Assembly (NCBI GenBank): GCA_905116865.2
Contig: CAJHNH020000691.1
Location: forward strand, 477,501-541,500
Direction: 5' to 3'
Length of the DNA stretch: 64,000 nt
From: Candidula unifasciata
Lineage: Eukaryota; Mollusca; Gastropoda; Stylommatophora; Geomitridae
Shown piece after piece: positions 2,324 through 56,217 of the stretch. The translations under genes and the position numbers were made by a program. The stretch's first letter is position 1. Every line of letters begins with the position of its first letter. The notes beneath the pieces are model-generated. The model ran no database searches, was not told the DNA's origin, and was given only the letters and a program-made list of their open reading frames with translations.

Positions 2324-20769
<18,446 letters not shown>

Positions 20770-25941: not shown

Positions 25942-26030
25942 ATGAGCAGCCGCGAGTTGTCTACAAGTGACCATAACTACACCTTGAGAGCTGAGGCTTC
26001 AAGCAAAAGCAGCCTGAATGTAAATTTCAG
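25942..26030 (+). CDS. TMTC4: TMTC4 exon 1 (start codon), predicted
   Basis: ATG with A at -3 and an in-frame TAG upstream opens 29 codons ([10 protein letters not shown]...) ending AATTTCAG|GTGAGG, leaving two bases. Exon 2 begins with exactly the one base required. The length before the first membrane segment is like that of vertebrate TMTC4. There is no sequence conservation to prove it, so the call rests on phase, donor and position. Confidence 0.6.
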
Positions 26031-29000
26031 GTGAGGATGACCATTGATATTTTACAGAATAATTTCACAGCTGTAGATCAGAGGTGTGGGTTCAGTTTTG
26101 ACACATCTGTGTTGATTTGTGCAGTTCTCTTTCTTTCTGTCCTCATGATTTTGATACTCAGTTTCCATCAGCTTGTCTCTACTTTAAAAATTTTTAAATT
26201 GTAAATAGAAAGGACTAGAGAATAATTTGTTTTACAGATACATATAACACGTCGATTGGTACTGCACAGCAACTTTAAACTATTGCACTAAGCTAAAGGG
26301 AGAGGGCATGATCTTTTAAGCTTCGATAGCTATTCATAGAACAGTTCTCTTTTATTGTCCACCAAGTAATTTCTCTCATTTCCTTTCACAACCCCTCTTA
26401 TACGTCCCCAGCTTGAAGTTGTAGAGGATCTTTATGTTCCAGTGATCGTAAGAGCTATCTGATGGTAGGGTGTTCCATGTAGGACTGGTTTAGAAAAAGT
26501 GACGAAAGGAAGTGAGACATAATCCTGCCTGCCTGCCTTTTAGGTAGAGTGGAAGACAGTTAAGGCTAGAGGAAAAAAACCCGAGGCAAGCTAGCAAGGG
26601 GGAGAAAGCGATACAAGTGGCAGGATAATGTCAAGAGATAGACGGACACAGTCTGAGAGAGAGAGAGTACATCCAAAGTGAAAAGCAGAAAATGCTGGAA
26701 TCTATTGCAGCCAGCTTTCATTGGGGAGAGAGTAGGGGAAGAGACACGATACCTGAATGGTTGATTTCAGCAAAGCCAACAAATTGTTTCTAAAATTGTG
26801 TGTACTGAATCACTGCTTGACAAAACAGTGCAGCCTAACACACTTTATAGTCATGTAACAAGCTAAGAGAAAGCAGAATGGTGCAGATAGCACTGATTTT
26901 CGCTAAACATAAATCATGCCACATCTCCTGCCTTGAAGGGGGCTCACTGAGTGATTGGGGCTCACTTTCTCCTATTTTGTGGAGTTGACATACAGAAGGA
27001 TAGAGTAAGCACTATTGACCAAACACCCCTTACACTCTACCAACAGCAGTGAAACGCTAAAGAAGAAATCCTCTTTATCATTTACACTCATACTTGCAAA
27101 ACTAAATGTTTACATACATTGTTAGATAAACACATGAATACATAAAGAGATGGAGGAGGGTCTCCAGGGTGATATGGTCAAGCTGTTAGCTTCCTATTCT
27201 GAAGATCGTGGGTTACACAGATGGGTCAGTAGTTCACCATGTGAGAAGCTCTTGGGCTTTTACAGCGCAGGCTGGAGTTGAAATTGTGAAGCAAGATTCT
27301 GGAGATGTTGCATTGACCACAAGTAGTCTGACTATGGAGGTCATGGCAGTGACCAAAGCAATAACATGGCTGGAGACACAGACCTTTTCCTATGCAAGCT
27401 TTCTCACCGACTATGAGTATGCTCAGGAAGATAGAGAAATTCTGTACTCGAAGACAGTGGGTGGAGTCCCTAAAGCGGTCTGGCTGACACATATTAGTTT
27501 CATATTTGTGCCAAGGCACGCAGGTGTGCAAGGGAATAAGCAAGCTGATTGCTTGCAGGTAAAGCTACTATGGAGGGCGGATGAGCCATGGACCATGCTG
27601 ATATTCTGAATGCACTACGAGAAGTAAGACTTTTGCAAGAACCAAGTGATGACTGTGAATCTGCAACAATGACCAGACTGCAAAAACAACATGTTAAAAG
27701 GGGTGTAGCCAGAAAAGAGCACTATGCAGGAAGCCAGAGAAGAATAAGAAACCAACAGAGAGCTAGTGTCTTGAGGCGCTACAGGCTGCTGGATTTACTA
27801 AGGTGGGGATCCGGGCACTTATGGACTGAATGGTTCGATGTGCAGTCTGTTGACTAACTAACTAAGATTGTTGGTTAATTTCACGAATGCATCATTCAGT
27901 TTATGAATGCAGTCTTTAATGAGATCCCTGGGGATCATCACTGTAGCTATGGAGTTTGTGCTTTGTATGACATCTTGGCCGGTGACTAGCTATTCTGTAG
28001 AGAGAGACTGAGCCATTTGGGATAACCTGGGGCATTGCAGTCGATCTTCTTAACACAGAGACACATACGCTCATATGCCATATGCATACAGAAATACATA
28101 CCATATTTGTTTCATGTATAAGTCGATCCCAATTTTTGTAGCCCAAAATAAAGAAATAATTGTTTTAATCACATTCTGTGAATAAGACGACACCTAGTTT
28201 TTAAACTTAAAAAAAAATTAGGATAACCTATCATCTTTACAAGGTAAAATACAGTACACCAGTTCTCACATTCTTTGCTCTTTCTGTTTCCCCAGCCGGT
28301 GGCTAGCAGGCTTGGCAGTGTTTGCCATTGCTGTTGTGTGTTTTGCCAACAGTTACGATGGGGAGTTTGTTTTTGACGATGCCGAAGCCATTGAGAACAA
28401 TAAAGACCTCCTGCCCACCACACCAGTGCAGGATCTGCTTCAGCATGACTTCTGGGGAAGGACACTGAGTAATTACAGCCACAAGTCGTACAGACCACTG
28501 ACTGTCCTCACTTTCAGGTATGTTTGCTGTGACCACTGACTGTCCTCACTTTCAGGTATGTCTGCTGTGACCACTGACTGTCCTCACTTTCAGGTATGTC
28601 TGATGTGACCACTGACTGTCCTCACTTTCAGGTATGTCTGCTGTGATCACTGACTGTCCTCGCTTTCAGGTATGTCTGCTGTGACCACTGACTGTCCTCA
28701 CTTTCAGGTATGTCTGCTGTGACCACTGACTGTCCTCACTTTCAGGTATGTCTGCTGTGACCACTGACTGTCCTTACTTTCAGGCATGTCTGCTGTGACC
28801 ACTGACTGTCCTCACTTTCAGGTATGTCTGCTGTGACCACTGACTGTCCTCACTTTCAGGTATGTCTGCTGTGACCACTGACTGTCCTCACTTTCAGGTA
28901 TGTCTGCTGTGACCACTGACTGTCCTCACTTTCAGGTATGTCTGCTGTGACCACTGACTGTCCTCACTTTCAGGTATGTCTGCTGTGACCACTGACTGTC

Positions 29001-32000
29001 CTCACTTTCAGGTATGTCTGCTGTGACCACTGACTGTCATCACTTTCAGGTATGTCTGCTGTGACCACTGACTGTCCTCACTTTCAGGTATGTCTGCTGT
29101 GACCACTGACTGTCCTCACTTTCAGGTATGTTTGCTGTGACCACTGACTGTCCTCACTTTCAGGTATGTCTGCTGTGACCACTGACTGTCCTCACTTTCA
29201 GGTATGTCTGATGTGACCACTGACTGTCCTCACTTTCAGGTATGTCTGCTGTGATCACTGACTGTCCTCGCTTTCAGGTATGTCTGCTGTGACCACTGAC
29301 TGTCCTCACTTTCAGGTATGTCTGCTGTGACCACTGACTGTCCTCACTTTCAGGTATGTCTGCTGTGACCACTGACTGTTCTTACTTTCAGGCATGTCTG
29401 CTGTGACCACTGACTGTCCTCACTTTCAGGTATGTCTGCTGTGACCACTGACTGTCCTCACTTTCAGGTATGTCTGCTGTGACCACTGACTGTCCTCACT
29501 TTCAGGTATGTCTGCTGTGACCACTGACTGTCCTCACTTTCAGGTATGTCTGCTGTGACCACTGACTGTCCTCACTTTCAGGTATGTCTGCTGTGACCAC
29601 TGACTGTCATCACTTTCAGGTATGTCTGCTGTGACCACTGACTGTCCTCACTTTCAGGTATGTCTGCTGTGACCACTGACTGTCCTCACTTTCAGGTATG
29701 TTTGCTGTGACCACTGACTGTCCTCACTTTCAGGTATGTCTGCTGTGACCACTGACTGTCCTCACTTTCAGGTATGTCTGATGTGACCACTGACTGTCCT
29801 CACTTACAGGTATGTCTGCTGTGATCACTGACTGTCCTCGCTTTCAGGTATGTCTGCTGTGACCACTGACTGTCCTCACTTTCAGGTATGTCTGCTGTGA
29901 CCACTGACTGTCCTCACTTTCAGGTATGTCTGCTGTGACCACTGACTGTTCTTACTTTCAGGCATGTCTGCTGTGACCACTGACTGTCCTCACTTTCAGG
30001 TATGTCTGCTGTGACCACTGACTGTCCTCACTTTCAGGTATGTCTGCTGTGACCACTGACTGTCCTCACTTTCAGGTATGTCTGCTGTGACCACTGACTG
30101 TCCTCACTTTCAGGTATGTCTGCTGTGACCACTGACTGTCCTCACTTTCAGGTATGTCTGCTGTGACCACTGACTGTCCTCACTTTCAGGTATGTCTGCT
30201 GTGACCACTGACTGTCATCACTTTCAGGTATGTCTGCTGTGACCACTGACTGTCCTCACTTTCAGGTATGTCTGCTGTGACCACTGACTGTCCTCGCTTT
30301 CAGGTATGTCTGCTGTGACCACTGACTGTCCTCACTTTCAGGTATGTCTGCTGTGACCACTGACTGTCCTCACTTTCAGGTATGTCTGCTGTGACCACTG
30401 ACTGTCCTCACTTTCAGGTATGTCTGCTGTGACCACTGACTGTCCTCACTTTCAGGTATGTCTGCTGTGACCACTGACTGTCCTCACTTTCAGGTATGTC
30501 TGCTGTGACCACTGACTGTCCTCACTTTCAGGTATGTCTGCTGTGACCACTGACTGTCCTCACTTTCAGGTATGTCTGCTGTGACCACTGACTGTCATCA
30601 CTTTCAGGTATGTCTGCTGTGACCACTGACTGTCCTCACTTTCAGGTATGTCTGCTGTGACCACTGACTGTCCTCTTGTTCATGTGTCTTAGACTCACCT
30701 CTCATTTATGTGTCTTATTTTACCTTACTTCCAATTGTCTTAGACTCACCTCTCATTTATGTCTTATTTTACCTTACTTCCAATTGTCAAAGACTCACCT
30801 CTCATTTATGTGTCTTATTTTACGTTACTTCCAATTGTCAAAGACTCACCTTTCATTTATGTGTCTTATTTTACCTTACTTCCAATCATCTTAGACTCAC
30901 CTCTCATTTATGTGTCTTATTTTACCTTAATTCCAATTTTCTTAGACTCACCTCTCATTTATGTCTTATTTTACCTTAATTCCAATTGTCTTAGACTCAC
31001 CTCTCATTTTTGTGTCTTATTTTACCTTACTTCTCTATTAAGTGTCTTATTTCACCTTATTTTCATGTCTGAAACTCACCTCTCTTTCACATGTCTTATT
31101 CTTTTGTTTCTTTCTTGTGTCTAAGACTGTTTTGCCTTTTAAGTATATCAGAACTTACTCAGTTACACCCGGAGTCACAGTAGTGTAGTGACTAGATGTT
31201 GCCTGTCAGCTCACAGGCCTAGGATCCAAATTCCTATTGAAGATGATGTTTTTGAAAAAGTGACCTTGCCTAGGTCGAGCAAGCCTAAAATGTGTACCAG
31301 GTAATGACCTGGAAAATAAAAGCACCTGGCATGAGGATGTTGACCACATTACCCATTTGAGTACCGATATATTATAAATCTTCAGGTGTAGCAGTGGGTG
31401 CCTGCTGTGTTGTGACTGTACTACTGAAACCATCACTTTTCAGTGTCTGATATTTCTGCTGTCCATATTTTGTGGGCTCGACCTCTGGCTCTGTTACTGT
31501 TGTATCTGTATAACATTGCTCTCTGTGGTGCCCTGTCTGCTGCCAATCGTGTTACATGGCCAAACCATTTGATTTGTTATCTGCGTAAAAAGTTCAGTAT
31601 CGGTTCTGTGCCGACTCTTCTGCTGATATCATTGTCCCTAGGTTGATCTTTCCACGTTACACCTAGCATAGTACATAAATATTTCATTTCTGTTGTGACT
31701 ATTTTCCTTCTGTCTTCTGAAGACAGTGTCCTTGTTTGACATTGATAGCATAGCATTGGTAAGAATATTGTGTTGAACAGTGTATTACCTGATTTAATCA
31801 ACTTACCTGTTCTCACCTTCAGATGGAACTATTGGGCAGCTGGAGGCTTGTTTCCCAAAGGCTTTCATATTGTTAATATTCTCCTACATGGAGTTGTTAG
31901 TGCTTTGTTGATGCCATGCTTCACCCTTGTCATGGTTGATGTTGGTGCTTCTGGTGGGGAATCAAAGCATGCTGAAGCAAAGTGGCCATTCTTATGCAGT

Positions 32001-35000
32001 ATCTTGTTTGCAGTTCATCCAGTCCACACGGAGAGTGTGAGTAACTTTGTGACACTGTCTTATCTAGTGTGGGTAAATATACTCCTTTATGCCCTGGTGT
32101 GGGTAAATATACTGCTGTATGCCCTGGTGTGGGTAAATATACTGCTGTAAGCCCTGGTGTGGGTAAATATACTGCTGTATGCCCTGGTGTGGGTAAATAT
32201 ACTGCTGTATGCCCTGGTGTGGGTAAATATACTGCTGTATGCCCTGGTGTGGGTAAATATACTGCTGTATGCCCTGGTGTGGGTAAATATACTGCTGTAT
32301 GCCCTGGTGTGGGTAAATCTACTGCTGTATGCCCTGGTGTGGGTAAATATATGGTGTATGCCCTGGTGTGGGTAAATATACTGCTGTATGCCCTGGTGTG
32401 GGTAAATATACTGCTGTATGCCCTGGTGTGGGTAAATATACTGCTGTATGCCCTGGTGTGAGTAAATATACTGCTGTATGCCCTGGTGTAGTATCTGATT
32501 GACATTGTAGGGGAAAAAAGAATAGATGCACACCCCCCCCCCCCTCCTCCTCCCAGCCATTCCACCAAGCATATCTTAAAAGTTGACTAATTAGGGGTGT
32601 TTCATTTAAAGTCAGAATGCATCTGCCTGAGAGACAAGGGACCAACAGTCTCCATACAGATTAGCCAGATTTGTAAAAAGAATTTGTATGCAAACTCAAG
32701 TTCTGGCATCAGGGCAGGAAGAGATCTCTGGGACGGGCCAAAGTCTAGAAGTGGATGAACAACCAGAACTTTCTGCCAGTCTTTACAGCCAATGAATGCA
32801 GATAAAAAGAAAGAGTAACTGTATGGGGTAAAACATGAAAAATGTCTAGCATAATTACTAATAAACTGCAGCATCGAAGCAACTAGGAAATCAAATGGAG
32901 TCTCTGGAGATGTGGATCTACAGAAAAGAACAGATGAAATTTTATGGAAACAAAAACAGTCAAGACAGGTTCTGAAGAGATTGGGAATAAAAAGAGAGTT
33001 GATGAAAGAAATTTCAAAAATGAGATAATTAAGATAATTTGGCCACATTAAAAGACATAACACTCTTTAGAACTATACTGGAGGGAAGGGTCAAGAGCAA
33101 GAGAGAAAGAAGTAGACAATATTGCAAAGGGGGAAGGCTGCATCAAGAGATGGACAAACAGCAGTTTGAGAGTGTACTACCAAGACAAGAGACACAGTAT
33201 GCTAAAGAACCATTGCAGCTAACATTCGTTGTGAAAATGGTAACACAATTTATTATTTGGTCCCAGGACAAAATAGAGGGAATTAAATGGTAAGATAGAA
33301 TACTAAAATGCAGCTTTGAAAGAAAACTAATTCCAATAAATCAAGAGGTGAGACTTGGAATGTCAGTGAACAAATTAAGAAGAATTTGGAAGCAACAGAG
33401 ATGTGGTTTCTGAGACTAGTGTTACGAATGGATGGCAAGAATAACTAACAACAATTGCTTGAAAGAAGCTAATGAAAGTAGATCTCTATATACAACAATA
33501 AGAAAGAGACAAACACTGTTCTTTGGTCACATAATGAAAAGAGAGACATTGTAGAACATTGTGACAACTAGAAAGATCGGTGGAAAAAGGGGTAGAGGCA
33601 GACCAAGAGAGATGATGCTGGATGGGCTGAAATGATGGCATGGAGGGAAATCATCAAGAGAGCTGTTCCAGGCAGCCAAGGATCATGATCTTTTAAGATG
33701 CATGAGTGTCTACGCCAGTTGGCAGGGCACATGATGATGATGATGAAGAGGTGAGAAAAAGATGCATGTATAAATTAAGACACACATTATGAAAATCTGA
33801 CCATGCAGGGTCAAAGGAATAAAGGCAGCCATAAATACAGATAGAGAAAAGATTTTTTTTTTAAATCTGATGGGAAAGACATGGTTGTACACATGACAAA
33901 CAAAATGATGCCTTGGTCAAGGGCCTATGCTCGACTGGGGAATAAACAACTTTTGTTTACTGATCTAAATACAAAAGATAAAATTATCTTTCTTTGCTAC
34001 TTTTCTTCTACCTTTAGCATGTTGACCCTTATGGTCTTGAAATAATCTTGTGCACCTAGCATATACCAAGGGAGTTGTGGTGTAGTAGTAATTGCTTGTA
34101 CCAATATTAGATTGATCCCTTCCAGTTAATCTTGTTTAGTGCTCATAATCTCCCAGTGGAGTATAGACAGCCAACTGACACCAAGCCCTGTTTTATCTGT
34201 AGACTTGTTCATGATTGCTTCGATTTTAGTGAAATTATTTTTATATGAACAGTTCAAAATAATAAACACATAACTAAAACAAGTGAACAGAATTAGACAT
34301 TCATGAAATGTAATTTTTACACACACAGTCACTTTATTTTTCAACATAATTTCCACCAACATTGATGCATTTGTCGCATCGTTTTATCAGTCCTCCCAAA
34401 CCTGCTGCATAGAACTGCGTGCACTGTTTTCTAAACAACATTATCATTTCACATTTAACTTTTGCATCATTCATGAAATTTCTACCGTCAAGGTGGGTTT
34501 TCAGTGGAGGGCTTTACGGAAAAACATTTGTCAGCAAAAACAGGAAGCATTTCCTTATGAATTTAATTTGCAGGCAGCCCTTTTGCCCCCTCCCCTCCCC
34601 AATAAAAACACAACAGCATATTGTTCGTTGAGGGTACACTCCTTGAGTGCAGTCACCATTGTTTTTTTCTGTGTTGCGAATGCGCATGCACCACCTAGCA
34701 CCATCTAACGAACAGAGACAGAAAGTTCAGTGTTGCTATTACCTAATGACATCTTTAGAAACCCCCAACTACATTTTTCTGCCATCCCATAACTGTTTGT
34801 GACTCACTTACTAACTTCCCCTCGTACAATTACAAACAAGAATACACAAATATTACCTATCTGAAAGTAGAGATGTTTCACAGAAATATCCATACACATC
34901 TGCTAATGCTAAATAATGCACCACACAATGATCTGACAAGCTTATAGATCTGTTCGTATGATCTTAGGTGGCTGGTGTTGTTGGCCGTGCTGAACTGCTT

Positions 35001-38000
35001 TGTGCCTTATTTTTCATCACCTCATTCCTGTTGTATGTAAAAGCCTGTACCAGGGGTAAGTGTAGTCATGAGGGCTGTGTCCAAACAGTTATCTTTACAA
35101 ACTATTTCTAGTACAAGCTATACCTAAGGTGTGTGGTTATACCATTTCTAATACTGTTTCTTCATAGTGTCACCATGTTATTAGTTAACAGCTGGAAAAA
35201 CCTTCACAAGAAAGAAGTAAAAGAAATAGAAATAAAAAAAACCCTTATTCAACAGACAAAGCGGAAAGTATGTTGTAGCTATGATGCTGATCTGCTGGCT
35301 CGAAAGTCTTGGGTTTGGAACTGCAGTGGGTGGATTTGAAAAACAGAAACAGTTGACCTTGGCTCTCAGATCCACCCATCTAAAATGGGGGACAGGAAGT
35401 AAAAATGAAAAAAGAGGCAGCCATGTGATGTTGACCCTATCACCCGCAGAGTGCCAGCTGGCCTGTCAAACAATATGATTCTAGCACCATATGCCCAGTA
35501 AATCACTGGCACTGAGTGAAGAGTGCGGAGGCTCAGATAGATCATTACGGTCTGAGGAGAATGACACTCCGAGGAGTGACCAGGGGATGTGGCCGACCCT
35601 TAACACTCAGGGGAAGGATGAGACGGATATACAATCAGACGGTTACTGGTACCATCAGAATAATAACTCTTTGCTTGCTGCTGAAGATGGGGACGGAGTA
35701 CTTTTGGGAGGGTCCCGAGTGCTGTGATGTCGATTCCTAATTCAACATTCAACATCACTGGCACTGAAAGAGTCTTTTACTAAATATTTATAAATACAGG
35801 GTTTCCTTGACTTGTTATGACCCAGTCCAGTTAACAGGTTTAAGGTGAACTGGTTGTTAAGTCAAATTGTATTTGTTAGCACTGTTTTCATGCAAAAGGG
35901 TTCTAAAAATTGTACATAAAATACAAACATTCTGTCTGTTTACCTATAATTAGACCCTGCTGCACTGTGATCATCATTTCATATAATTCTGTTAACCCGA
36001 CAGTTTAATGTATACTTCTTTACTATTTTTATTTTCATATTTGTTGTTGTAACTTTTCCTGTTGAAGTTGTCAAGCTGTTTTCTTCTCACTGTGAAGGTC
36101 ATGGGTTCGTTTCACAGCTGTATTATTCTATTCACGAGTGCAATTTTTATGGAGACCCCTGGGGATCGTCGCCAGAGCTATGGAGTTTGCGCTTTGTGCG
36201 ATGCTCTTGGCAGGCGGCTAGTCGCTGTGCGGAAAAAGACCAAGCTGTAACCCTTTCGTTTCTAAGCAATATATGATGTTTATATTATCACTTTTAGGTG
36301 AATCCTACCCATTACATAATATGTTCTCATACTTGTCCCCGTGGCAAAGTGCTTGAGTGGTTTGCTTCATGCTCATTTTGTTGTGGAATTGATTGTTTAT
36401 TAACCACATCCTTCATTTTTAGGGAGCTGATGTTTCAAGAGTTTATAAGGGTTGTTGTTGGAGCTGCAGAATCTATGGTTTTTAGGGTGCTTTCCTGAGA
36501 GAGACTGAGCCATATGGGATAAACACCTTGCTCCTTGAAGTTATTTCTTTTGCCTGTAAATTTGTTACATTTGGTTAGAGCACACTTGAGAAATCAGGCT
36601 TCTCAGCTGACAGCTGCTTCCACTGTGCAACTATCATCTTTGAAAGATGACAGACCATGGCAACAGCCAGGCTTAAACAAAAAAGAACCCTGCAAAAGTG
36701 GTAAATAGAGACAGTTAAGGCAGTTTGGTAGATAATGTTATAGTGGTTGTTGTTGATGTTGAAGTTGTGTTCCTCTCGTTGCAGCCACTTTTGTTACTGT
36801 CAGGGTTAATCAGAAAGTCATAATTTACAAAATATCAGAAAAACATTATAATGTGACCACAACACTTGACTATAGGAATATTGAAAATGTCAAATATGAC
36901 TACCAACTTATAGTTTTACCTGTTGTTAGATGTAGTCGGACAGAGCTGAAGTTGAAACTTTAGCTATAGGGCTGTTGTAAATGGCTAGAGAAGTTGGTTA
37001 AACCAGCAAAACTTGTGCATGAATGAAAACAACACAATTATGCCCCCTTTGCTTCATACTTTTAGGTGGGGTCCCTTTGTTCAACAGAAACCAGGATTTT
37101 TCAGATGGTATGCAACAGTGTGCATTACCAGCACCTTTAATTTGGGCATAATTTTTTTTCTGCACTACTGTAATAGACACTTTGTAGTGAGTACTAGCAT
37201 GTTATAGACATCTTGTTATGATTACCAGCACCTTTTCCTAGAAAAAGCTCTGCCAGTAACCATTATTTTTAGAACCAGTCTTCCCCTGTGGATTTTGGGG
37301 TCCCACTGTGGGGAAAACAAGAATAGACCCACTGCCTTCCCAACAAGCATGTTGTACGAGTCAAATTATTGGGGGCTTCCTTCAGAGTCAGAGTGCATCT
37401 GCCTAAGAAACAACAAACCAACCATCTGCTTACAAATAAGCAAGATCTGTAAAATGGATGCACACGCAAAACTCAGGTTCTGGAACAAAGCCGAAGTCCA
37501 GAAATGGACAAACAACCAGGTCTATCCGCCGTGGTTTACATCCGGTGAACACAAAAAACAAGGAACAACAGAACCAGACTGCCAGTATCCTCACTTGAAG
37601 TTTTTCATGTTCTAATCATAATGAATATTTAGCTACATTTATGATGATAATCTAAACGCAGATTCAGAGTTCCGTCCTAAGGGTTTCTCTTTCATCTGGT
37701 TGTGCGCCAGTTTGATATTTTGTGGCCTGGCAACATTCAGCAAGGAACAAGGAATTACAGTTCTTGTGAGTAGCAGTTTTTAACCAAGTGATTTGCGTAG
37801 CTTGGAAATTAGTTTGTTAATAAAGCAAAAGGCCAATCTTACGTCAGTGGCATATCTGGAATGTGATGCTTCTTACGTCAGTTTCATATCTAGAATGTGA
37901 TGCTTCTTACGTCAGTGTCATATCTAGAATGTGATGCGTCTTACGTCAGTGTCATATCTAGAATGTGATGCGTCTTACGTCAGTGTCATATCTAGAATGT

Positions 38001-41000
38001 GATGCGTCTTACGTCAGTGTCATATCTAGAATGTGATGCTTCTTACGTCAGTGTCATATCTAGAATGTGATGCGTCTTACGTCAGTGTCATATCTAGAAT
38101 GTGATGCTTCTTACGTCAGTGTCATATCTAGAATGTGATGCGTCTTACGTCAGTGTCATATCTAGAATGTGATGCGTCTTACGTCAGTGTCATATCTAGA
38201 ATGTGATGCGTCTTACGTCAGTGTCATATCTAGAATGTGATGCGTCTTACGTCAGTGTCATATCTAGAATGTGATGCATCTTACGTCAGTGTCATATCTA
38301 GAATGTGATGCTTCTTACGTCAGTGTCATATCTAGAATGTGATGCGTCTTACGTCAGTGTCATATCTAGAATGTGATGCTTCTTACGTCAGTGTCATATC
38401 TAGAATGTGATGCGTCTTACGTCAGTGTCATATCTAGAATGTGATGATTGACTCACAGTCGGCACACAGTGGATGATGTCAACATCATGCCAGCCCCCAT
38501 TACTTCCCAGGACATTGCCTGCTGCCACTGTTTTGCTGGGTTGAGCTGGGAGCCAAGGTCCCTTTGTAACAAACAAAAATCCACCTTTTGCGAATTTGAA
38601 CCCAAGACCTTGAGGCAGGCGGGTAAGCATCTAACCCAGTGGTTCTCAACCTTCCTAATGCTGCAACCCTTTAATACAGTTCCAAGTGTTGTGGTGACCC
38701 CCAGCCGAAAAATTAATGTTGTTGTTACTTCATAACTTCAGTGTATATGTGTTTTCCTATGGTCTTAGGCAACCCCTGTAAAAGGCTTGTTCGACCCACA
38801 AAAGGGTCATGACCCATAGGTTGAGAACCACTGATCTAACCCCTGCACTGCCAATTAGGTTAATAATGTGATGAAATCTTATGTATATAAGACATTTTCA
38901 TCCATGTCAACATGATACACAATTAATCCAACAATTATGTCCTTACTGATGAGGACACATCACCATTTTTTCGCCTCAGGACATTTGCCTGGATAAGCAT
39001 CTTCATTGCATCTTTCCTAACCGTGCACAAGTGTGCTAGGCCAACAAAACTGCACACCATTGTCCTCTTATACATCAAACTATACTGACCCAATGAAGCA
39101 CCAGGAGACTTACCATTGTCTATAATGTTGTATTCATCTGTGTTTTTGTTACTGGTTGTGTGCATTGTTTTTGATGATGTTTCCATTTGTGTTTTTGTTA
39201 CTGGTTGCATGCATTGATTTTAATGATGTATCCTTCTGTGCTTTTGTAACTGGTTGTATGCATTGTTTTTGATGATGTATCCTTCTGTGCTTTTGTAACT
39301 GGTTGTATGCATTGTTTTTGATGATGTATCCATCTGTTTTTGTTACTGGTTGTATGCATTGGTTTTGATGATGTATCCAACTGTGTTTTTGTTTCTGATA
39401 GTATGCATTGTAGGAACAGATCAAATGGTTTTTGGACCTGAGTCAAGCCTACCACCAGATACAGCACCACAGAGAGCCTTGTCATTCAGACATAATGTAA
39501 GCAGAAATAGAGGTCGACCACACAAGCGATGGATAGATGGAATATCTGAGGCTGTAAATACCAGGGTCTACATAGCACATATCAAGGCTTACACCTGATG
39601 CCTCTTCAAAACCTGATGCTGAAAGGCAGAACAAGACTGAAGAAGAAAAAGAATGCATTGTGTGAGATGTTGTATCTATCATATCAGTGTTTTTCTTACA
39701 GGGACTTTGCAGTGTTTATGATATTGTATCTGTTTGCGGTGTGGACCTCGGAGTCTTGCTTGGATTCACAAAATCAGCAGGCACAAAGTTGTCCGTGTCT
39801 GTGCAGAAGCCTGTGCCTTCAGCATCTTCATCTCTGTCCAATGGAGCTTCATTAAAAAAGGTTTGTGGGGAGAATGGAAGTTTGCTGTGTATTGTTATAT
39901 ATGTGTGTTTGTCCTTTGTGACTAAGTAATGTAGTCATGTGTGTTTATAACAAGTTGTTTTGAACATTCAGATTGTTGCTTTGGCATAGTAGTCGAGCTG
40001 TTTGCCTTGCGCTCTAGAGGTTGTGAGTTCGTTTCACATTGGCAGCTTTCGGTTCATGGGAGCAGTTTTTATGGAGACTCTAGGTGATCATGGCCAGAGC
40101 TATTTAGTTTGTGCTTTGTATGACACTCTTGGCAAGAACTAGCCATTCTGCAGAAAGAGATTGTCATGTGAGATTAAAATCTACTTCAGTGAAGTCGATC
40201 CTCACACCTTTAACCTTTGTTTTGCACTTTCTTCACTACATTAACAACAAAAAAAACAATTCTTACACTTCCTCTTCCTCATCATCTTCTTCTTTTTATC
40301 ATCTTCTTCTTCTTTTTATTCTCTTCATTCTTATTTTCTTTCCTACTGTTTCCTTACCCTTTTACTCTTCTTCATATTCTTTGTCTACTGTCACCCTCTA
40401 TTTTGTCTTTGAGCCCCATTTTTGACTACAGGCCAAGCTTCTTCCCTACCTTTATTTTCATCTTTTTTCTCAGCTTCTCTACCTACATCTCCTGTTTCTT
40501 CTTCATTTGTCTTCATCTTCTTCTTTTTTTTCTCTGGTTCTTTGTTTTCTTCTTTTATGTCTACCTCTTCTTGTTAATTGTTTTCTCTTATTCTCCTTTG
40601 TTTTTCATCTACTACCCTTTCATCATCTGCTGTTTCTTAACATTCATCCTATATTCCCAAATAGCTTATATACAGAGCATTTATTAATAGCAATACTGTT
40701 GACATCTTTTATGTGAATTCCCCAGGAATGTGGATCAGTGGCACCGTGGCAGGTATCACTTGTGAAGCGGCACATTCTGCTTACTGCTACCGGTGTAATA
40801 CTGTTGGTAGTTCGGTGGAAAGTTATGGGGTCATCACCGCCGACATTTCAGATACATGACAACCCTCATTCATTTGTTAATGGATCTCTCTTCAGGGTAG
40901 GAATCCTTATTTGTTTCATCATTAATAATAGACATATTCTATTATTTGTGATAAAGCTCGTTTACACTTGTAATGATGTTACGTGTTCTAATGTTGTTAC

Positions 41001-44000
41001 TGTCTACAATTGACAACACTGAATCGGCACTTGAATTCCAATATGCATTCTATCAGCTTATTGTAGTTTATCATCATTTCTCCACCAACCCAGTTATTCA
41101 ACATCAATCCTTTCCTGGTGATCACAGTTAAACTATGTAATACTCATTTATCCTATATTCTATGTCTTCAAATGCAACAACCGTCTTTGTCGAACTCTGG
41201 TATGCAACTGACCATGAGCCAACCTCAGGTTTTTCCTCCTTCATAACTCTAGCCCGGAGTATTCCCCTGCTTTTGTCTCTTGCACAGGTTTTCTGCTCGG
41301 CCTTCTTTGAGCATGGTCCACTATACAAAACAGAGTCATCACACAATTCAAATTTTGAACTGTGTCCATTTTCATAATAATACTCTTCATATGTAAGACA
41401 TACCTATTCAATATATACGCAGAAAATATAATGAGAAATGTCAAAAATGACCAGACTTGTGACAGTTATGATCCGCTCAGTATTGGTGGCAACCCTATTC
41501 CGGAACTCTGCTACACAGATGACACAGTCCTCCTTTCGAACAGCGTAAAGGGAATAGAAAATTTAATATTGTCCGTCCAAAAGCACAGTGAAGATAAAAA
41601 TCTGTTCTTGAATTTAAAGAAAACGAAAATAATGTCCACAGATAAAACTGGCTGTCACCCAAAAATAACAATAAATAATGAAGAAATTGAAAATGTCACA
41701 CACTTTGAAAATCTAGGCTCTGTAATAAACAACAATGGAGACTGTTCGACAGAAATTAAAAGGAGGATGGCCATAGCAATGCAAAGATTGAACAGCCTTA
41801 AAAGTCTGGTTAAGCACCAGCAAGGAGATAAAAATTAGAATTTCGAGAGCATGCATCTTCCCTGTGGCTACATACGGATGTGAGTCGTGGACTCTCAGTC
41901 CTTAAGAAAGAGAATAGGGGCTTTTGAGCTGAAATGCTATAGAAAGATTCTCAGAATATCTTGGACAAAGAAGATGAGAAATATTGACATCTCAAAAGAT
42001 CTTAACATCAAGGAAGATTGGCTAATAAACAGCATCCTTTCTCAAAAGCTGAAATATTTTGGTCATATCAAGCGCCACGACGGATTGGGAAAAAATTATA
42101 GCAGAAGGCATGGTACCAGGAAGGAGAAGCAGGGGCCGACCGACACCAAGATGGGTACAGGATATAAGTGACTCCTTGAGTGTGAAAGTTCATGAGGCGG
42201 GAGAACTGGCAAGAGACAGAGTTTCTTACAGGCAGACTGTGATGAGAGCGACTTTCTGCAAAGGACCTGCTACATGATGGATGGATGTTGGACTCATTGT
42301 TTCTGTTGTCTTAAGGAAACTTCTCAGATCCTGCACTTTTTTTTTCTTACTTTTATTTTAATAATCAAAACACTCATGCCTGAATTTGTTTTTCTTATGT
42401 GGGTTTTGGGGGGGGGGGGGGGGGGGGGGGGAGAGAGAATAGTAGACCCCCTAAACAAGCATGTCATACAAGGCGACTAATTATGGAAGTTTCCTTTGAA
42501 GTCAGCGTTCATCTGCCTGAGAGACGAGGAACCAACAGTCTGCATGTAAGTAAGCCATATATGTAAAAAAAAATGTGCACGCAAAACTCATGATCGAAGT
42601 CCAGAAATGGATGAACAACCAGAGGTTTTAAAGAGAGTTGACAGCCAGTGAACTTTAAGAAGAGGAAGAAGAATTTGTTTTATGTTTACAAAATGTTTAA
42701 GTCAGTGACACTGTCGAGCTCTTGTTATTGACACTTAGTATCAGTTATTATCCTCAGGTCTTGAACTACAACTACCTGTATGCCATCAATGCCTGGATAC
42801 TGTTGTGCCCACAGTGGTTGTGCTTCGACTGGTCGATGGGTTGTGTGCCTACAATTGCCTCCCTTGATGACCCTCGCCTGATTGCAGTGATGCTATTTTG
42901 GGTCATGTTGCTGCTACTGTTGTGGACTTGCTTGTGCAATGAAAGTATAGCCACCAGAAGGTACTGACATGAATCATGTGTTCCTCATTTTAAGGAGAAG
43001 AAGAATCGACCCACTGCCTCTATAAAAGCATGCCATAAAAGTCGACTAATTAGGAGTGTTTCATTTGAAGTCGCAGTGCATGTGCCTGTGAGTTGAGGGA
43101 CCGGCAATCTGCCTACAAATAAATAAGATCTGTAAAACAGATGTGCATGCAAAACTCAAGTTCTGTGACAAAAGTCCAGAAGTGGATGAAGTACCAGAAC
43201 TTTCCGTTGCTGTTACAGCTGATGCACGTAAATAAGAAGAAAAATCATTTATCACATGAGGCAAACACTATGAATTATTCATAACTCTGCACTGTACACA
43301 AATAAAAAGACACCTTTCTTTACCAGAAGGGTAGACCTTCTGACTTGGGTGGGCATATGAGCTGAGAATGCCTTCAATATAAACCCTGACACTTGGAAGG
43401 CTGCTGCAAAGGACTGAATCATATAGCGAACATCTATCCAGAAAAGTGCAGCAACTTGCAAGGCATCCATAAAAAAGGGCAGCTGAACAACACAGGTAGG
43501 CTAGAAAACCCCTATAACAGACCTTTTATCTACAGACATTGTTCTGTGCCCTCATTGTCCTAGATCCTTCCGGGCACGTATTGGGCTTATATGTCCTAGA
43601 TCCTTCCGGGCACGTATTGGGCTTATAAGTCACTTCTGGACTCACTGACCGTCGACTGTAGTTTCATAACTGATGAAAGAAAGAGTGATCCTCATCACTT
43701 GTGGTGACAAACAACAAGCTGAGCATTGCTTTGTTATGTTATGTTATCACAATCCACTTCACTGCACATTGGGCATTTCCGTGCATGCTGAGTGCTCTAA
43801 TGCAGCAGTCACTCCAAAGTACTTTTACTAATTGTTTCCATAAGAAGCTGGTTATATTGTTTCCTATCTCGGCCTCGAAGACGGCATAGACGTGCTTCAC
43901 TGTGCTTTTCATCCCATGTCACGCAATCGTGTTAGTGTCAGGGATTCCTCATCATCCACTAGCCCAGTCCGTACAGCGTTGACGATATCTGCTCTGTCCA

Positions 44001-47640: not shown

Positions 47641-50600
47641 TTATCTTTGGCAATATGCCAGATTCATGTAAGTGCAATTGTGGCAGTTCTCACCTAATGA
47701 ATTTACAGAGCTGTTTTTGTGTGTGTCACTTGATTAATGCTAAAAGCACACCTGTGACTTTCTATTCTGGAAAACCTGTTTCTAGGATTACTGAACCTGT
47801 TTCTAGGATTACTTAACCTGTTTCTAGGATTACTGTACCTGTTTCTAGGGTTACTGTACCTGTTTCTAGGATTACTGAACCTGTTTCTAAGATTACTGAA
47901 CCTGTTTCTAGGATTACTGAACCTGTTTCTAGGATTACTGAACCTGTTTCTAGGATTACTGAACCTGTTTCTAGGATTACTGTACCTGTTTCTAGGATTA
48001 CTAGACCTGTTTCTAGGATTACTGAACCTGTTTCTAGGATTACTGTACCTGTTTCTAGGATTACTGAACCTGTTTCTAGGATTACTGAACCTGTTTCTAG
48101 GATTACTGAACCTGTTTCTAGGATTACTGAACCTGTTTAATAGGTCTTGACTAGGATGAGCCCTGGTCTTGGTGAACTACCTCTACATCCCGATGTGTAT
48201 TCAGTTGTATGTTAAAGCATAAAATAGGATACTTCCATACTCATGTGTAAAGGAGGAATGACAGATAAAAGTGCTTTTGTTTGTGTTTATGCAATTATAC
48301 TGTCATCCCCATGTGGGTTGCAGTTTTATGTTATTTTGATGCCCCACCCTGGCTTTTGCCGAGGGCCTTAAATATAGCCGGGCCTGAAATAGGGTCTAAC
48401 GGCTGAACAGGGTTTCCGGGACCTCTCCTCGGGTGATCCTCATCCGCATGGTGGCACTTTGTGTGACCGGGCGTTTATCGCTTGTGTGATGTCCTGGTGG
48501 GGGTACAATACATACCTACCTGTTTATGCAACATATTAGCAAAAACAACAACAACAACAATCTGCCATGTGTGTACCAGTCCATAAGATGTTCAAGAAAA
48601 ATTAAAAAGTCGACCACATTCAACCTACTGCGAACAGTTTTAGTTATAATTATAGTCTGACGTCTCTGTGCCCAATGTATTGACTAAGATATATTATTTG
48701 TGCCAAATTTAATGGCTTCAGTAGTTTTGTCAGGTATTATAAATAGCTAAGTGACTCTACCAGTGAGTCTTGTCCATCTTTGCATGTTTGGGACTGGTAT
48801 TTTAGTCTTTTTGTTTGAGTGGTTGTCCTTTTTGTCTGTCTGTCTGTCATCCTAATTTAGGCTGTGATTGTGATATGTATAAAGGGGTAATTCTCTTGTG
48901 GTCTAGTTTAACATATTTGATATCAAGATGGTGAGTCCTGTCCTCCTCCATTGGGTCCAGTTATTATTATTATTATTATAATACTGTATTAATGTCCTAA
49001 TGATATTCCATCTTGGCTTGTTCATCTCCTCCTATGTTGGAGTAACCAAGCTGGTATGGTTCTGTGCTGCCTGCAGAGTACCCAGGGCCAGTACCAGTAT
49101 ATGTGACACATAGTAAGGACTTTATGTAGCTGGGTCAGGAAGACCATCAATCACTAGTATACATTGTCTTCTGCAGGTTGCTTTGGCTGGGTTTGTTCTA
49201 CTGATTCTTCTGTTTGCTGCCAGATCAGCACAGGTATGATCATTATATTTTGTTTTGTTTCTTGCTGCCATGTTACAGAGCTGCTGAACCACACATTGTG
49301 GTATACCAGGGCTGATACCAGTGAAGGTGTCCACAACTCTTTGTGGCATCCTAGAAATGGATTCCCAAACAGGGACTGGCCATTGTAGATAGGATCAATA
49401 TGTCTTTCAAAGTCGGAGTGCATCTATCTGAGAGGCAGGCGTCTAGGAAGGTGTCCACAACTTTTTGTGGCATCCTAGAAATAGGTTCCCAATCGGGGAC
49501 TGGCCATTGTAGATAGGATCAACATGTCCTTCAAAGTCGGAGTGCATCTATTTGAGAGACAAGCAACCAACAGTCTGGACATAGTGGACAGTAAAGAACA
49601 GAAAGCTATGCTACAAGTATAGAAAGCTATGCTACAATGAAAGTAGGAAATGCTATGGCCATGCTGCAAGAAGAGACATCCATGCTACAGTGAAAGAAAT
49701 CCATGCTACAAGGAAAGAAATCCATGCTACAAGGAAAGAAATCCATGCTACAGTGAAAGAAATCCATGCTACAAGGAAAGAAATCCATGCTACAAGGAAA
49801 GAAATCCATGCTACAAGGAAAGAAATCCATGCTACAAGGAAATAAATCCATGCAACAAGGAAAGAAATCCATGCTATGAGGAAAAAAATCCATGTTACAC
49901 AGAAACAAAGCCATGTTAACAGAAACAAAACATTGCTACAATAAAAGAAAGCCATGCTACAATGAAAGAAATCCATGCTACAATGAAAGAAATCCATGCT
50001 ACAAGGAAATAAATCCATGCTACAGTGACATAAATCCATGCTACAGTGAAATAAATTCATGCTACAAGGAAAGAAATCCATGCAACAAGGAAAGAAATCC
50101 ATGCAACAAGGAAAGAAATCCATGCTACAAGGAAAGAAATCCATGCTGCAAGGAAAGAAATCCATGCTACAAGGAAAGAAATCCATGCTACAAGGAAAGA
50201 AATCCATGCTACAAGGAAAGAAACCCACACTACAAGGAAAGAAACCCATGCTACAAGGAAAGAAATCTATGCAACAAGAAAGGAAATCCATGCTACAAGG
50301 AAAGAAACCCACACTACAAGGAAAGAAATCCATGCTACAAGGAAAGAAATCCATGCAACATGGAAAGAAATCCATGCTACAAGGAAAGAAACCCACACTA
50401 CAAGGAAAGAAACCCATGCAACAAGGAAAGAAATCCATGCTACAAGGAAATAAATCCATGGTACAAGGAAAGAAATCCATGCTACAAGGAAAGAAATCCA
50501 TGCTACAAGGAAAGAAATCCATGCTACAAGAAAAGACACCCATGTTACAAGGAAAGACACCCATGTTACAAGGAAAGAAATCCATGCTACAAGGAAAGAA

Positions 50601-53600
50601 ATCCATGCTACAAGGAAAGAAATCCATGCTACAAGGAAAAAAATCCATGCTACAAGGAAAGACACCCATGTTACAAGGAAAGAAATCCATGCTACAAGGA
50701 AAGAAATCCATGCTACAAGGAAAGAAATCCATGCTACAAGGAAAGAAACCCACACTACAAGGAAAGAAACCTGTGCTACAAGGAAAGAAATCCATGCAAC
50801 AAGGAAATAAATCCATGCTACAAGGAAAGAAATCTATGCAACAAGAAAGGAAATCCACGCTACAAGGAAAGAAACCCACACTACAAGGAAAGAAATCCAT
50901 GCTACAAGGAAAGAAATCCATGCAACAAGGAAAGAAATCCAGGCTACAAGGAAAGAAACCCACACTACAAGGAAAGAAACCAATGCAACAAGGAAAGAAA
51001 TCCATGATACAAGGAAATAAATCCATGCTACAAGGAAAGAAATCCATGCTACAAGGAAAGAAATTCATGCTACAAGGAAAGAAATCCATGCTACAAGGAA
51101 AGAAATCCATGCTACAAGGAAAGAAACCCATGCTACAAGGAAATAAATCCATGCAACAAGGAAAGAAATCCATGCTACAGGGAAAGAAATCCATGCTACA
51201 AGGAAAGAAATCCATGCTACAAGGAAAGAAATCCATGCTAACAAGAAAGAAATCCATGCAACAAGGAAAGAAATCCATGCCACAAGGAAAGAAATCCATG
51301 CCACAAGGAAAGAAATCCATGCTACAAGGAAAGACATCCATGCTACAAGGAAAGAAACCCATGCTACAATGAAAGAAATCCTTGCTACAAGGAAAGAAAT
51401 CCGTGCAACAAGGAAAGAAATCCATGCTACAAGGAAAGAAATCCATGCAACAAGGAAAGACATCCATGCAACAAGGAAAGAAACCCATGCTACAAGGAAA
51501 GAAATCCTTGCTACAAGGAAAGAAATCCATGCAACAAGGAAAGAAATCCATGCTACAATGAAAGAAATCCATGCAACAAGGAAAGAAATCCATGCTACAA
51601 GGAAAGAAATCTATGCTACAAGGAAAGAAATACATGCTACAAGGAAAGAAACCCACACTACAAGGAAAGAAACCCATGCTACAAGGAAAGAAATCTATGC
51701 AACAAGGAAAGAAATCCATGCTACAAGGAAAGAAATCCATGCTACAAGGAAAGAAATCCATGCAACAAGGAAAGAAATCCATGCTACAAGGAAAGTTATC
51801 CATGCTACAAGGAAAGAAATCCATGCTACAAGGAAAGAAATCCATGCTACAAGGAAAGAAATACATGCTACAAGGAAAGAAACCCACACTACAAGGAAAG
51901 AAATCTATGCAACAAGGAAAGAAATCCATGCTACAAGAAAGGAAATCCATGCTACAAGGAAAGAAATCCATGCTACAAGGAAAGAAATCTATGCAACAAG
52001 GAAAGAAATCCATGCTACAAGGAAAGAAATCCATGCAACAAGGAAAGAAATCCATGCTACAAGGAAAGAAATCCATGCTACAAGGAAAGAAATCCATGTT
52101 ACAAGGAAAGAAATCCATGCTACAAGGAAAGAAATCCATGCTACAAGGAAAGAAATCCATGCTACAAGGAAAGAAATCCATGCTACAAGGAAAGAAATCC
52201 ATGCTACAAGGAAAGAAATCCATGCAACAAGGAAAGAAATCCATGCTACAAGGAAAGTTATCCATGCTACAAGGAAAGAAATCCATGCTACAAGGAAAGA
52301 AATCCATGCTACAAAGAAAGAAATACATGCTACAAGGAAAGAAACCCACACTACAAGGAAAGAAACCCATGCTACAAGGAAAGAAATCTATGCAACAAGG
52401 AAAGAAATCCATGCAACAAGGAAAGAAATTCATGCTACAAGGAAAGAAATCCATGCTACAAGGAAAGAAATCCATGCTACAAGGAAAGAAATCTATGCAA
52501 CAAGGAAAGAAATCCATGCTACAAGAAAGGAAATCCATGCTACAAGGAAAGAAATCCATGCTACAAGGAAAGAAATCTATGCTACAAGGAAAGAAATCCA
52601 TGCAACAAGGAAAGAAATCCATGCTACAAGGAAAGTTATCCGACAATGGAAGAAAGCCATTTATTTTCAAAAATGACCTTGACCCTTATGTCGATCCAGC
52701 CTTACTGTGTACTGGGTGAAGTCCTGGGAAGTAAAGGCGGCAGATGTGATGCTGACCACATCACTCATCAAGTGCTCATTGATCTATAAAGTATAGGTCT
52801 AGCGAATGTACCCAGTGTGCCTAATGGTGTAGAAAAGGGCTCTTTTTGTAATATAATTAAGGGTAGAAATATTTTTTTTGCTAAGAACTATTTTGTTAGT
52901 TTCAGTCGCAGTTGTTTTATGTATTTTGCAGAGAAGTAATGAATGGAGGAAAGGCATATGGTTGTTCAGAGCGGGAGAGAAGGTCTGTCCTGACAATGCT
53001 AAGGTGAGACTTCTTCTTGACACCCACAATCTGTTGAAGCCCACATGAGTGAAGTCACTTTGTCTAGCGTGACTTATGCTGCCACATGAGTGAAGTCACT
53101 TTGTCTAGCGTGACTTATGCTGCCACATGAGTGAAGTCACTTTGTCTAGCGTGACTTATGCTGCCACATGAGTGAAGTCACTTTGTCTAGCGTGACTTAT
53201 GCTGCCACATGAGTGAAGTCACTTTGTCTAGCGTGACTTATGCTGCCACATGAGTGAAGTCACTTTGTCTAGCGTGACTTATCTGCCACATGAGTGAAGT
53301 CACTTTGTCTAGCGTGACTTATGCTGCCACATGAGTGAAGTCACTTTGTCTAGCGTGACTTATGCTGCCACATGAGTGAAGTCACTTTGTCTAGAGTGAC
53401 TTACGCTGCCACATGAGTGAAGTCACTTTGTCTAGCGTGACTTATGCTGCCACATGAGTGAAGTCACTTTGTCTAGCGTGACTTATGCTGCCACATGAGT
53501 GAAGTCACTTTGTCTAGCGTGACTTATGCTGCCACATGAGTGAAGTCACTTTGTCTAGCGTGACTTATGCTGCGACATGAGTGAAGTCACTTTGTCTAGC

Positions 53601-56217
53601 GTGACTTATGCTGCCACATGAGTGAAGTCACTTTGTCTAGCGTGACTTATGCTGCCACATGAGTGAAGTCACTTTGTCTAGCGTGACTTATGCTGCCACA
53701 TGAGTGAAGTCACTTTGTCTAGCGTGACTTATCTGCCACATGAGTGAAGTCACTTTGTCTAGCGTGACTTATGCTGCCACATGAGTGAAGTCACTTTGTC
53801 TAGCGTGACTTATGCTGCCACATGAGTGAAGTCACTTTGTCTAGCGTGACTTACGCTGCCACATGAGTGAAGTCACTTTGTCTAGCGTGACTTATGCTGC
53901 CACATGAGGAAGTCACTTTGTCTAGCGTGACTTATGCTGCCACATGAGTGAAGTCACTTTGTCTAGCATGACTTATGCTGCCACATGAGTGAAGTCACTT
54001 TGTCTAGCGTGACTTATGCTGCCACATGAGTGAAGTCACTTTGTCTAGCGTGACTTATGCTGCCACATGAGTGAAGTCACTTTGTCTAGCGTGACTTATG
54101 CTGCCACATGAGTGAAGTCACTTTGTCTAGCGTGACTTATGCTGCCACATGAGTGAAGTCACTTTGTCTAGCGTGACTTATGCTGCCACATAAGTGAAGT
54201 CACTTTGTCTAGCGTGACTTATGCTGCCACATGAGTGAAGTCACTTTGTCTAGCGTGACTTATGCTGCCACATGAGTGAAGTCACTTTGTCTAGCGTGAC
54301 TTACGCTGCCACATGTCTCTGTATTCCAATGTATCTGTTAATGTTGACTGTTGTTTGTTATGTGAGTTCCAAAGATTATCATAAAGATTTATCATAGGAT
54401 GGTAGAGTTATGACACATTTCTGACATGAGGGTTAGTGAGAACAAGTCTCATCATCATCATGTAGCAGGTCCTTTGCAGAATGTTGCTCTCATTACGGTC
54501 TGCCTGAAAGAAACTCAGTCTCTCCCGCCTCATATACTTTCATACTCAAGGAGTCACTTATAACTTGTGCCCATCTTTGTTTCGGTGCCCCTCCTTCCTG
54601 GTACCATGCCTTCTGCTATAATTTTTTTTTCCGTTGTACTTGATATGACCAAAATATTTCAGCTTCTGAGACAAGATGCTGTTTATTAGCCAATCTTCCT
54701 TGATGTTCAGATCTTTCAAGATGTCAGTATTTCTCCTCTTCTTTGTCCAAGATATTCTGAGAATCTTTCTATACTATTTCAGCTCAAAAGCCCCTATTCT
54801 CTTTCTTAAGGACTGGGAGATAGTCCATAATTCACATCTGTATGTTGCTACAGGAAAGATGCATGCTCTCAAAATTCTTTTTTTTTGGAGACAAGTCTAG
54901 TTGTTGAAAATTGTGTTTGGAAAATAAGGAATTTAAGGCTATCTTCCAAATAACGGTCCCAAATTATCGAGGCAGAAAATATACCCTAACATGGCCTCAG
55001 TCACGTGTCAATTGCGCACTTCCGCCACCGCCGAGAGTATCCCCCACACCGCTCACGCGGCATGGATTTGGGCTAAACTAGATGGCTGGGACTCACGAGC
55101 ACCAGCAACCGCATTTCCTGCAGCTGCCCTGATTTTATTTGCTCATTAGTCCTAGCCATCTAGTTTAGCCCCAATCCACGCCGCGAGAGCGGTGTGGGGG
55201 ATACTCTCGGTATAGTCCCCGAAAGTTCGCAATTTGGCGGTGGGGGTATAGTCCCCGGAAGTGCGCAATTGACACGTGACTGATGCCCTGTTAGGGTATA
55301 TTTTCTGCCTCGATAATTTAGGACCGTTATTCGGAAGATAGCTGAATTTAAAATAACATACTTCAATGCTCTCCTCTCCGTCTCCCCAGTCTAAGAGTAG
55401 TGGATTGGATTTCTCACCTTTTTTCAGACAGATAGTATCAAATAGGATGTCTCTCATTAGACAGTAGTCTTCTGCAAAGCATCTATTAAAATGGATGGTC
55501 CAGAAGTGTGTTTGTCAGCCTGTTAATGCTTGCAGGATGGAAAAATGTTTCATAGTGATGGTTAGGACAGAACAAAAAATGTTGACAGTATTTTATTTAT
55601 TAGATCAGATAAAATTCAGATTTTTAGCTTATGCGAAATAAAAATCATCATATAATAATTTATTTATTAGGTCTAATATTATAAAATTCAAATTTTTAGG
55701 CAACGCCAAATGAAATAAAAACAAAAAATTGTAAGAATTACATCCCGTGTTAAACAATTTAAATTTTTAGCTCATGCAAATAAATAAATGTTGATAGCAC
55801 TTTTTTTTTTTAGATTGAGTGTTATAAAATTCTGATTTCTGGCTAACAAAAGAGGTTCGAAACTTGATATACCTAGCTGGACCATTGTTTCTGAGACAAT
55901 AAAGATCTGATTTTTGATTTGTCTGATAAGAGATGTGTGAGTGTGTTAAGATTGGCATCTTTTTCTTTCAACTGGTCTGATATTTAGCATTAAACAGGTC
56001 CATAACAATATTGGCTAACTGTGTAGATAATGATCTAGAGTACCAGTATATGGTATATAATGTTGCTGATAGAAGGGTAATATGTTGGTATTTGTATCTG
56101 GTAATTTTTGTCTAAAAATTAAACAGGTCCATTATAATATCAAACAGCTGTGTGGAGACGATGGTCTAGGGTTGAAGTTGAAAGGATCGACTTCATTGCA
56201 CCAGTTTTAATCCACAT

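Follow-up and report, generated by a model that had tools for sequence, protein, structure and literature searches.

A 38-bp minisatellite of 57 units spans the end of TMTC4 exon 2 and its splice donor in the gastropod Candidula unifasciata

The TMTC4 gene of Candidula unifasciata was studied in a stretch of 64,000 nt (GenBank assembly GCA_905116865.2, contig CAJHNH020000691.1, positions 477,501–541,500, forward strand; hereafter the window, whose own numbering is used throughout), and the boundary between its exon 2 and intron 2 was found to be repeated in tandem, with 57 full copies of a 38-bp unit that holds the last 23 coding bases of the exon and the first 15 bases of the intron. By its anatomy the array is of the same kind as the boundary-spanning repeats of amphioxus known as mirages and the minisatellite of the human gene IFI6, and it is a real and extreme case of that kind. 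We think it likely that it is a donor-spanning minisatellite which grew neutrally and is tolerated, not used, since the first donor prevails; the copies of the donor are probably passed over in splicing.

Tandem Repeats Finder places the array on the plus strand at 28493–30675 (period 38, 57.4 copies, 97% matches, score 4184), far beyond chance. Aligned in the register of the exon, the 57 full units occupy 28495–30660 without interruption and are followed by a partial 58th unit of 15 nt (30661–30675) that ends the array in both Tandem Repeats Finder and the unit alignment. An earlier note on this DNA had described a unit of this composition in about 57 tandem copies, which agrees with the present analysis, while its array start at 28497 has to be moved to 28493–28495. 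The authentic junction, 28517|28518, is that of unit 1. The motif TTTCAGGTATGT (TTTCAG|GTATGT) is present in 53 of the 57 units, the first being the genuine junction, and within the window it occurs only in the array (53 times on the plus strand, never on the minus strand); the donor 9-mer CAGGTATGT is found in 54 and CTGAC in all 57. The deviating units comprise three with GC in place of GT, which makes their boundary AG|GC instead of AG|GT, and one with TTACAG. The description of the true donor as the first among near-identical competitors is accurate, the 9-mer of 54 units being identical to the real one.

TMTC4 lies on the plus strand in the right part of the window, with exon 1 near 25942–26030 as its left end. 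The exons were found by a tblastn search and then read; 14 of them joined as two open stretches with no internal stops, and exon 1 and a small exon at 49177–49233 were added from C. unifasciata proteins. The donors used are all GT (16/16) and the acceptors all AG (15/15). Exon 2, the second coding exon (28296–28517), ends with CTCACTTTCAG inside an Arg codon and continues in an open frame into exon 3 (31823–32036), both exons being read through by the gene model P0074, a predicted protein of C. unifasciata. Use of the donor GTATGT of unit 1 (28518–28523) and the acceptor of intron 2 (31803–31822) gives the junction 28517|31823, an intron of 3305 bp and the sequence ...LTFRWNYW, as in P0074. 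The annotation presents TMTC4 of this species as two proteins, P0017 being the second half, and P0074 runs at its end into the intron that follows exon 40726–40896 (region 40717–41013).

When the units were typed by their variants, a higher-order structure appeared, with blocks of 16 (28495–29102), 15 (29103–29672) and 16 units (29673–30280) and a truncated fourth block of 10 units (30281–30660), all on the plus strand. The string of unit types reads a.c.d..e......f. / a.c.d..g.....f. / a.chd..g......f. / i.......f., and variant units recur at shifts of 15, 16 and 31 units. Type g differs from type e by one added change, which suggests that block 1 was the source of blocks 2 and 3, and since type a, that of junction unit 1, returns at units 17 and 32, the junction unit itself would have taken part in block copying or conversion. 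Nine positions of the unit vary, one of them breaking the donor GT and one changing the tract, so that, on this small number, there is no sign of selection keeping the copies intact. Over its first 306 nt the array has an ordinary predicted RNA fold (z +0.8), and scans against Rfam and for tRNA genes gave no match.

The block structure is compatible with growth by exchange. We suggest that a 38-bp segment which by chance straddled the end of exon 2 was duplicated and then expanded, and that later growth also proceeded in blocks of 15–16 units carrying the variant of the junction unit, presumably by slippage or unequal exchange. An inflation of the copy number by misjoined repeat reads is highly improbable: the draft was assembled with wtdbg2 and polished from about 25x PacBio coverage, but its read N50 of 9.9 kb exceeds the 2.2-kb array (PMC8496239), the blocks differ in private variants and in length, and further arrays of the same kind are found in the assembly.

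To describe the effect of retained units, exon 2, m units and exon 3 were joined for each m from 1 to 57. In all 57 cases the first stop is the same TGA (28537–28539, plus strand), in frame after six extra residues, YVCCDH. The statement that units spliced as 38-nt exons would shift the frame is thus right in effect, but the outcome is not merely a shift, being one and the same stop whatever the value of m. Whether a later donor is used or units are spliced as exons, the mRNA comes out the same (exon 2, m x 38 nt and exon 3), save for unit variants, so it cannot separate the two routes, and zero-length splicing steps leave no trace in it. Splicing would most likely proceed from 28517 to 31823 in one step with the exon-proximal donor dominating. 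Since retained units meet a stop after six residues, leakage to later donors would give a stop-containing mRNA, which would presumably be removed by nonsense-mediated decay.

The same observations could be turned into a regulatory proposal, in which the copies act as decoy donors that divert a copy-number-dependent share of the transcripts into stop-containing mRNA, the length of the array thereby setting TMTC4 output. The early stop common to every m and the donor 9-mer common to 54 of the 57 units would suit such a rheostat, as would human IFI6, where three mRNAs are made with repeat-unit donors (PMC4526556). Against it, the protein search returned a single TMTC4 locus with no second haplotype contig, and we consider this proposal unlikely.

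The strength of the splice signals was scored with weight matrices built from the splice sites of TMTC4 itself, real donors being scored leave-one-out. The array donor (8.99; U1 duplex -7.8 kcal/mol) scores above 12 of the 15 other real TMTC4 donors. The acceptor half reaches a modest 3.14, below 12 of the 15 real acceptors; relative to 4229 non-array AG sites it stands at the 93rd percentile. When the array's own score was taken as acceptor cut-off, 61 AG|GT sites on the plus strand passed both cut-offs, 53 of them in the array, as did five on the minus strand. This acceptor half is coding: the end of exon 2, CCA CTG ACT GTC CTC ACT TTC AG, is read as P-L-T-V-L-T-F-R. The peptide RPLTVLTFR is exact in 76 of the 120 homologues listed and fits a degenerate pattern in 109, a further nine differing by one or two residues, and the region is absent from two (P0017 and P0072). 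The branch-point-like A precedes the end of the AG by 16 nt, a distance near the short limit for branch points. The likeness to a ratchet point arises because the conserved PLTVLTFR codons can be read as a branch-point-like motif, pyrimidines and CAG.

The earlier note had read the array as a run of ratchet points, by which the intron could be removed stepwise by recursive splicing or units could be spliced as zero-length or 38-nt exons. The part of this claim that stands is that an exon end with its donor has been amplified some 57 times and that both sides of the AG|GT resemble splice sites, moderately on the acceptor side and strongly on the donor side, as in 53 of the 61 plus-strand sites above; an acceptor motif directly followed by a donor motif, as in ratchet points, is present at these 53 sites. 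A further donor also follows each AG|GT after 38 nt and formally supplies the short cryptic recursive-splicing exon (RS-exon) with downstream donor described as necessary for fly ratchet points (PMC8605326). The part that finds no support is that the array works in recursive splicing: its acceptor half is coding and modest in score, and a spacing of 38 nt in an intron of 3305 bp stands against the long introns of flies, where recursive segments are nearly all above 1 kb and the mechanism is apparently confined to very long introns (PMC6110457). In fly kuz, recursive splicing was the normal state only for ratchet donors stronger than the RS-exon donor (PMC8605326), unlike the array, in which the two are equal in strength. 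The units of a second donor array of this genome, at a neutral ceramidase exon (see below), lack a tract altogether (8 of 18 pyrimidines, score -0.9), so a ratchet likeness is not required for such an array to exist. The available part of a 2026 preprint on features of recursive splicing makes no mention of tandem repeats (PMC13105047). Of the whole account, recursive splicing has the least support, and we regard it as improbable here. The stronger form, a working ratchet run with many AG|GT steps before the final one, in which wrong use of a later donor is self-repaired through the decoy's own acceptor, seems less probable still; if true, it would make donor arrays with a good acceptor half self-cleaning and able to outgrow others.

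A comparison of the ends of intron 2 revealed an unexpected likeness. The acceptor at 31803–31822 equals the end of exon 2 at 15 of 20 nt (in frame LPVLTFR against LTVLTFR) and ranks first among 4226 AG-anchored 20-mers from outside the array (P 3.5e-5 against resampled columns of other acceptors, in a comparison made post hoc). The other 14 TMTC4 introns give 3–8 of 20, and 210 cross pairs at most 12. Such a likeness would be expected if intron 2 was born by tandem duplication of the exon end, according to the Rogers model that was put forward for the amphioxus mirages (PMC3087553), with the array as its remains. The start of the intron and the start of exon 3, on the other hand, are unlike (5 of 20), and the acceptor was compared after the sequence had been seen. 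The age of the intron also argues against a recent birth. In a TMTC paralogue (C1445) the frame ends at the same residue and in the same phase, with TCGTTCAG|GTAGGT and a stop right behind, while two others (C646 and C7176) read through with no intron at this position. Judged from the end of its frame, the first paralogue seems to share position and phase of the intron, and its downstream exon was not located; going by this paralogue, the position is present in a relative within the genome, which points to an old intron, older than the paralogue split unless it was gained twice. Birth of the intron from the array is therefore very unlikely in our estimation, and an earlier conversion by units of the array, post hoc choice or chance may account for the likeness between the real acceptor and the exon end.

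Arrays of equal design were found at other genes of the genome. One came from the first 100 places listed by a genome-wide search for TTTCAGGTATGT: an exon with a match to ABCG1 (phmmer E 2e-14; the Pfam match to ABC2_membrane, E 3.5e-5, stays below the Pfam cut-off) has ...MADMPFQ|GTATGT at its end, behind which Tandem Repeats Finder counts 57.7 copies of a 24-bp unit (minus strand of G000 C424, L010 4146–5629). Its units typically read ...CCTTGCCCTTCCAG|GTATGT, the exact CAGGTATGT is present in 43, the first units keep the reading frame (VCHTLPFQ) and the unit lengths vary further in. Donor-spanning arrays were also found at an exon that matches neutral ceramidase (L038, C36; Pfam E 1.8e-14, PDB E 1.6e-6) and at one that matches the sulfonylurea receptor SUR1/ABCC8 (L048, C293; E 4.4e-14).

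The latter two come from 17 arrays that were examined in listing order, all seven from the 100 matches listed for three CAGGTATGT in tandem and the first ten for three CAGGTAAGT in tandem, where in at least four of the ten the examined piece stopped short of the array start. Six of the 17 appear exon-end-like by eye (C34, C36, C74, C239, C293 and C299), a fraction without a null comparison; their open frames extend over 33–173 codons, but the 11 uncounted arrays have frames of up to 46 codons as well. Protein support was obtained for two of the six (the ceramidase and SUR arrays), C299 gave a weak GH18 match (E 0.005, below the Pfam cut-off) and C34, C74 and C239 gave none. The acceptor scores of the exon ends (3.1 for TMTC4, 1.7 for ABCG, -0.9 for ceramidase, 1.8 for C34 and 3.6 for C74) indicate that acceptor likeness is common but not required.

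Genome-wide, TTTCAGGTATGT is counted 184+167 times on the two strands, including 53 times in the TMTC4 array, and the reversed word 95+92 times; three CAGGTATGT in tandem give 640+1061 matches (1701) against 470+407 (877) for the control, and three CAGGTAAGT 323+205 (528) against 170+316 (486), hardly above it. These are counts of matches, not of arrays, and thus reveal no clear general excess of donor arrays. The first search word, TTTCAGGTATGT, itself favours pyrimidines before the AG. At seven loci (L001–L007) no array was present over the single site, and for L008 none was listed. In a sample of 55 arrays (200 kb of contig C224 and the window), donor-like units with a score of 6 were not clearly enriched, with 13 observed against 8.7 after shuffling and at most 15 in 100 shuffles. 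At L009 4873–5053 (C423) a 44-bp unit repeated 4.1 times ends in TTTCAG|GTATG before a possible exon and may span an acceptor, as a candidate mirror case; a Pfam search of its frame gave no hit.

The interpretation of the TMTC4 array as a tolerated, neutrally grown minisatellite draws on its exact span of the boundary, the junction variant shared among blocks, the conserved protein motif, the fit of P0074, the uniform stop and the recurrence at the ABCG1, ceramidase and SUR exons. Several points weigh against it. The junction 28517|31823 rests on a predicted gene model, P0074. The 54 GT-bearing unit donors equal the real one over nine positions, so that the dominance of the first donor is an assumption, and duplicated identical donors are not always resolved toward the upstream one. 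In human IFI6, downstream repeat units do serve as donors (PMC4526556). The resemblance of the intron 2 acceptor to the exon end is left unexplained, and the copy number is taken from one long-read draft assembly (PMC8496239).

Other repeats are present along the gene. Directly behind the 38-bp array lies a second minisatellite of 51 bp x 6.9 (30685–31033, plus strand), and a relationship to the 38-bp unit was rejected as not significant (P 0.16). Three further minisatellites (32067–32489, 37837–38446 and 53041–54315) begin 30, 71 and 37 nt behind TMTC4 donors. Among the nine arrays of TMTC4 introns with units of 20 bp or more in five or more copies (arrays of 2–4 copies and simple repeats being dropped), four start within 75 nt of a donor (P 0.00125 against random placement; 3/8 and P 0.006 when the 38-bp array is left out), a limit chosen after looking; with a limit of 300 nt P is 0.125, and none of the nine ends within 75 nt of an acceptor. 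The three near-donor arrays were rejected as mirages, showing no homology to their donors (shuffle P 0.19, 0.97 and 0.24), in a test in which one of five control arrays reached P 0.018. At 49659–52635 a 21-bp unit is repeated about 142 times and is open in several frames (the longest of 1010 codons, on the minus strand); it is probably a non-coding minisatellite. Telomere-like TAGGGT/CCCTAA stretches occur inside the contig at 13057–13499 and 25477–25542. The open frame 17793–18122 contains a stretch that we take to be copper amine oxidase-like (GMHHIPHTEDIPVTP...), and the one at 27190–27609 resembles an RNase H domain of a LINE-type element.

With this array a mollusc joins amphioxus and one human gene, the cases of donor-spanning minisatellites known here, and arrays of equal design are present at three other genes of the same genome. 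It also amounts to a naturally occurring competition assay of how a 5' splice site is chosen, in which the exon end is followed at fixed spacing by 53 more CAG|GTATGT donors that agree over nine bases, and the unit used would tell whether the spliceosome counts from the exon, counts from the end of the intron or cleans up recursively. In abalone an intron minisatellite reaches up to 62 copies (PMC6905558), and a limited literature search, which is thin evidence of absence, found no donor-spanning array in a mollusc.

The closest known counterparts are the amphioxus mirages (Adh3, the globins BflGb6 and BflGb9, TnC and PGBD5), in which minisatellite-like repeats cross exon-intron boundaries with AG/GT in many units, as they do in TMTC4 (PMC3087553, PMC3902484). 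The unit crosses the boundary in TMTC4 as well (23 coding and 15 intron nt), and the splice signal is carried by 54 of the 57 units. In the mirages regular splicing is kept, apparently without harm from the repeats; in TMTC4 the gene model P0074 fits the regular junction. They were described in a cephalochordate, with six and three units in two BflGb6 haplotypes, whereas the array studied here is from a mollusc and has 57 units. In the globin mirages the boundary units are reported to be excluded from homogenisation, while the junction unit of TMTC4 shares its variant with inner units.

The minisatellite of human IFI6 (6-16, G1P3) has a 12-bp unit in about 26 copies, in frame. According to the title of a 1995 report by Turri et al., this minisatellite supplies several splice donors. 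As in TMTC4, tandem repeats thus provide several donors at the end of an exon; in IFI6 downstream donors are used, with three mRNAs as a result, but in TMTC4 such use would lead to a stop. Drosophila ratchet points share with the array the AG|GT juxtaposition and a further donor shortly downstream but are conserved and kilobases apart in long introns, whereas the TMTC4 units are 57 tandem copies 38 nt apart. The intron gain in potato RdRp by the Rogers model likewise involved a duplicated segment across a splice boundary, the difference being that the position of TMTC4 intron 2 is apparently common to a paralogue and thus not recent.

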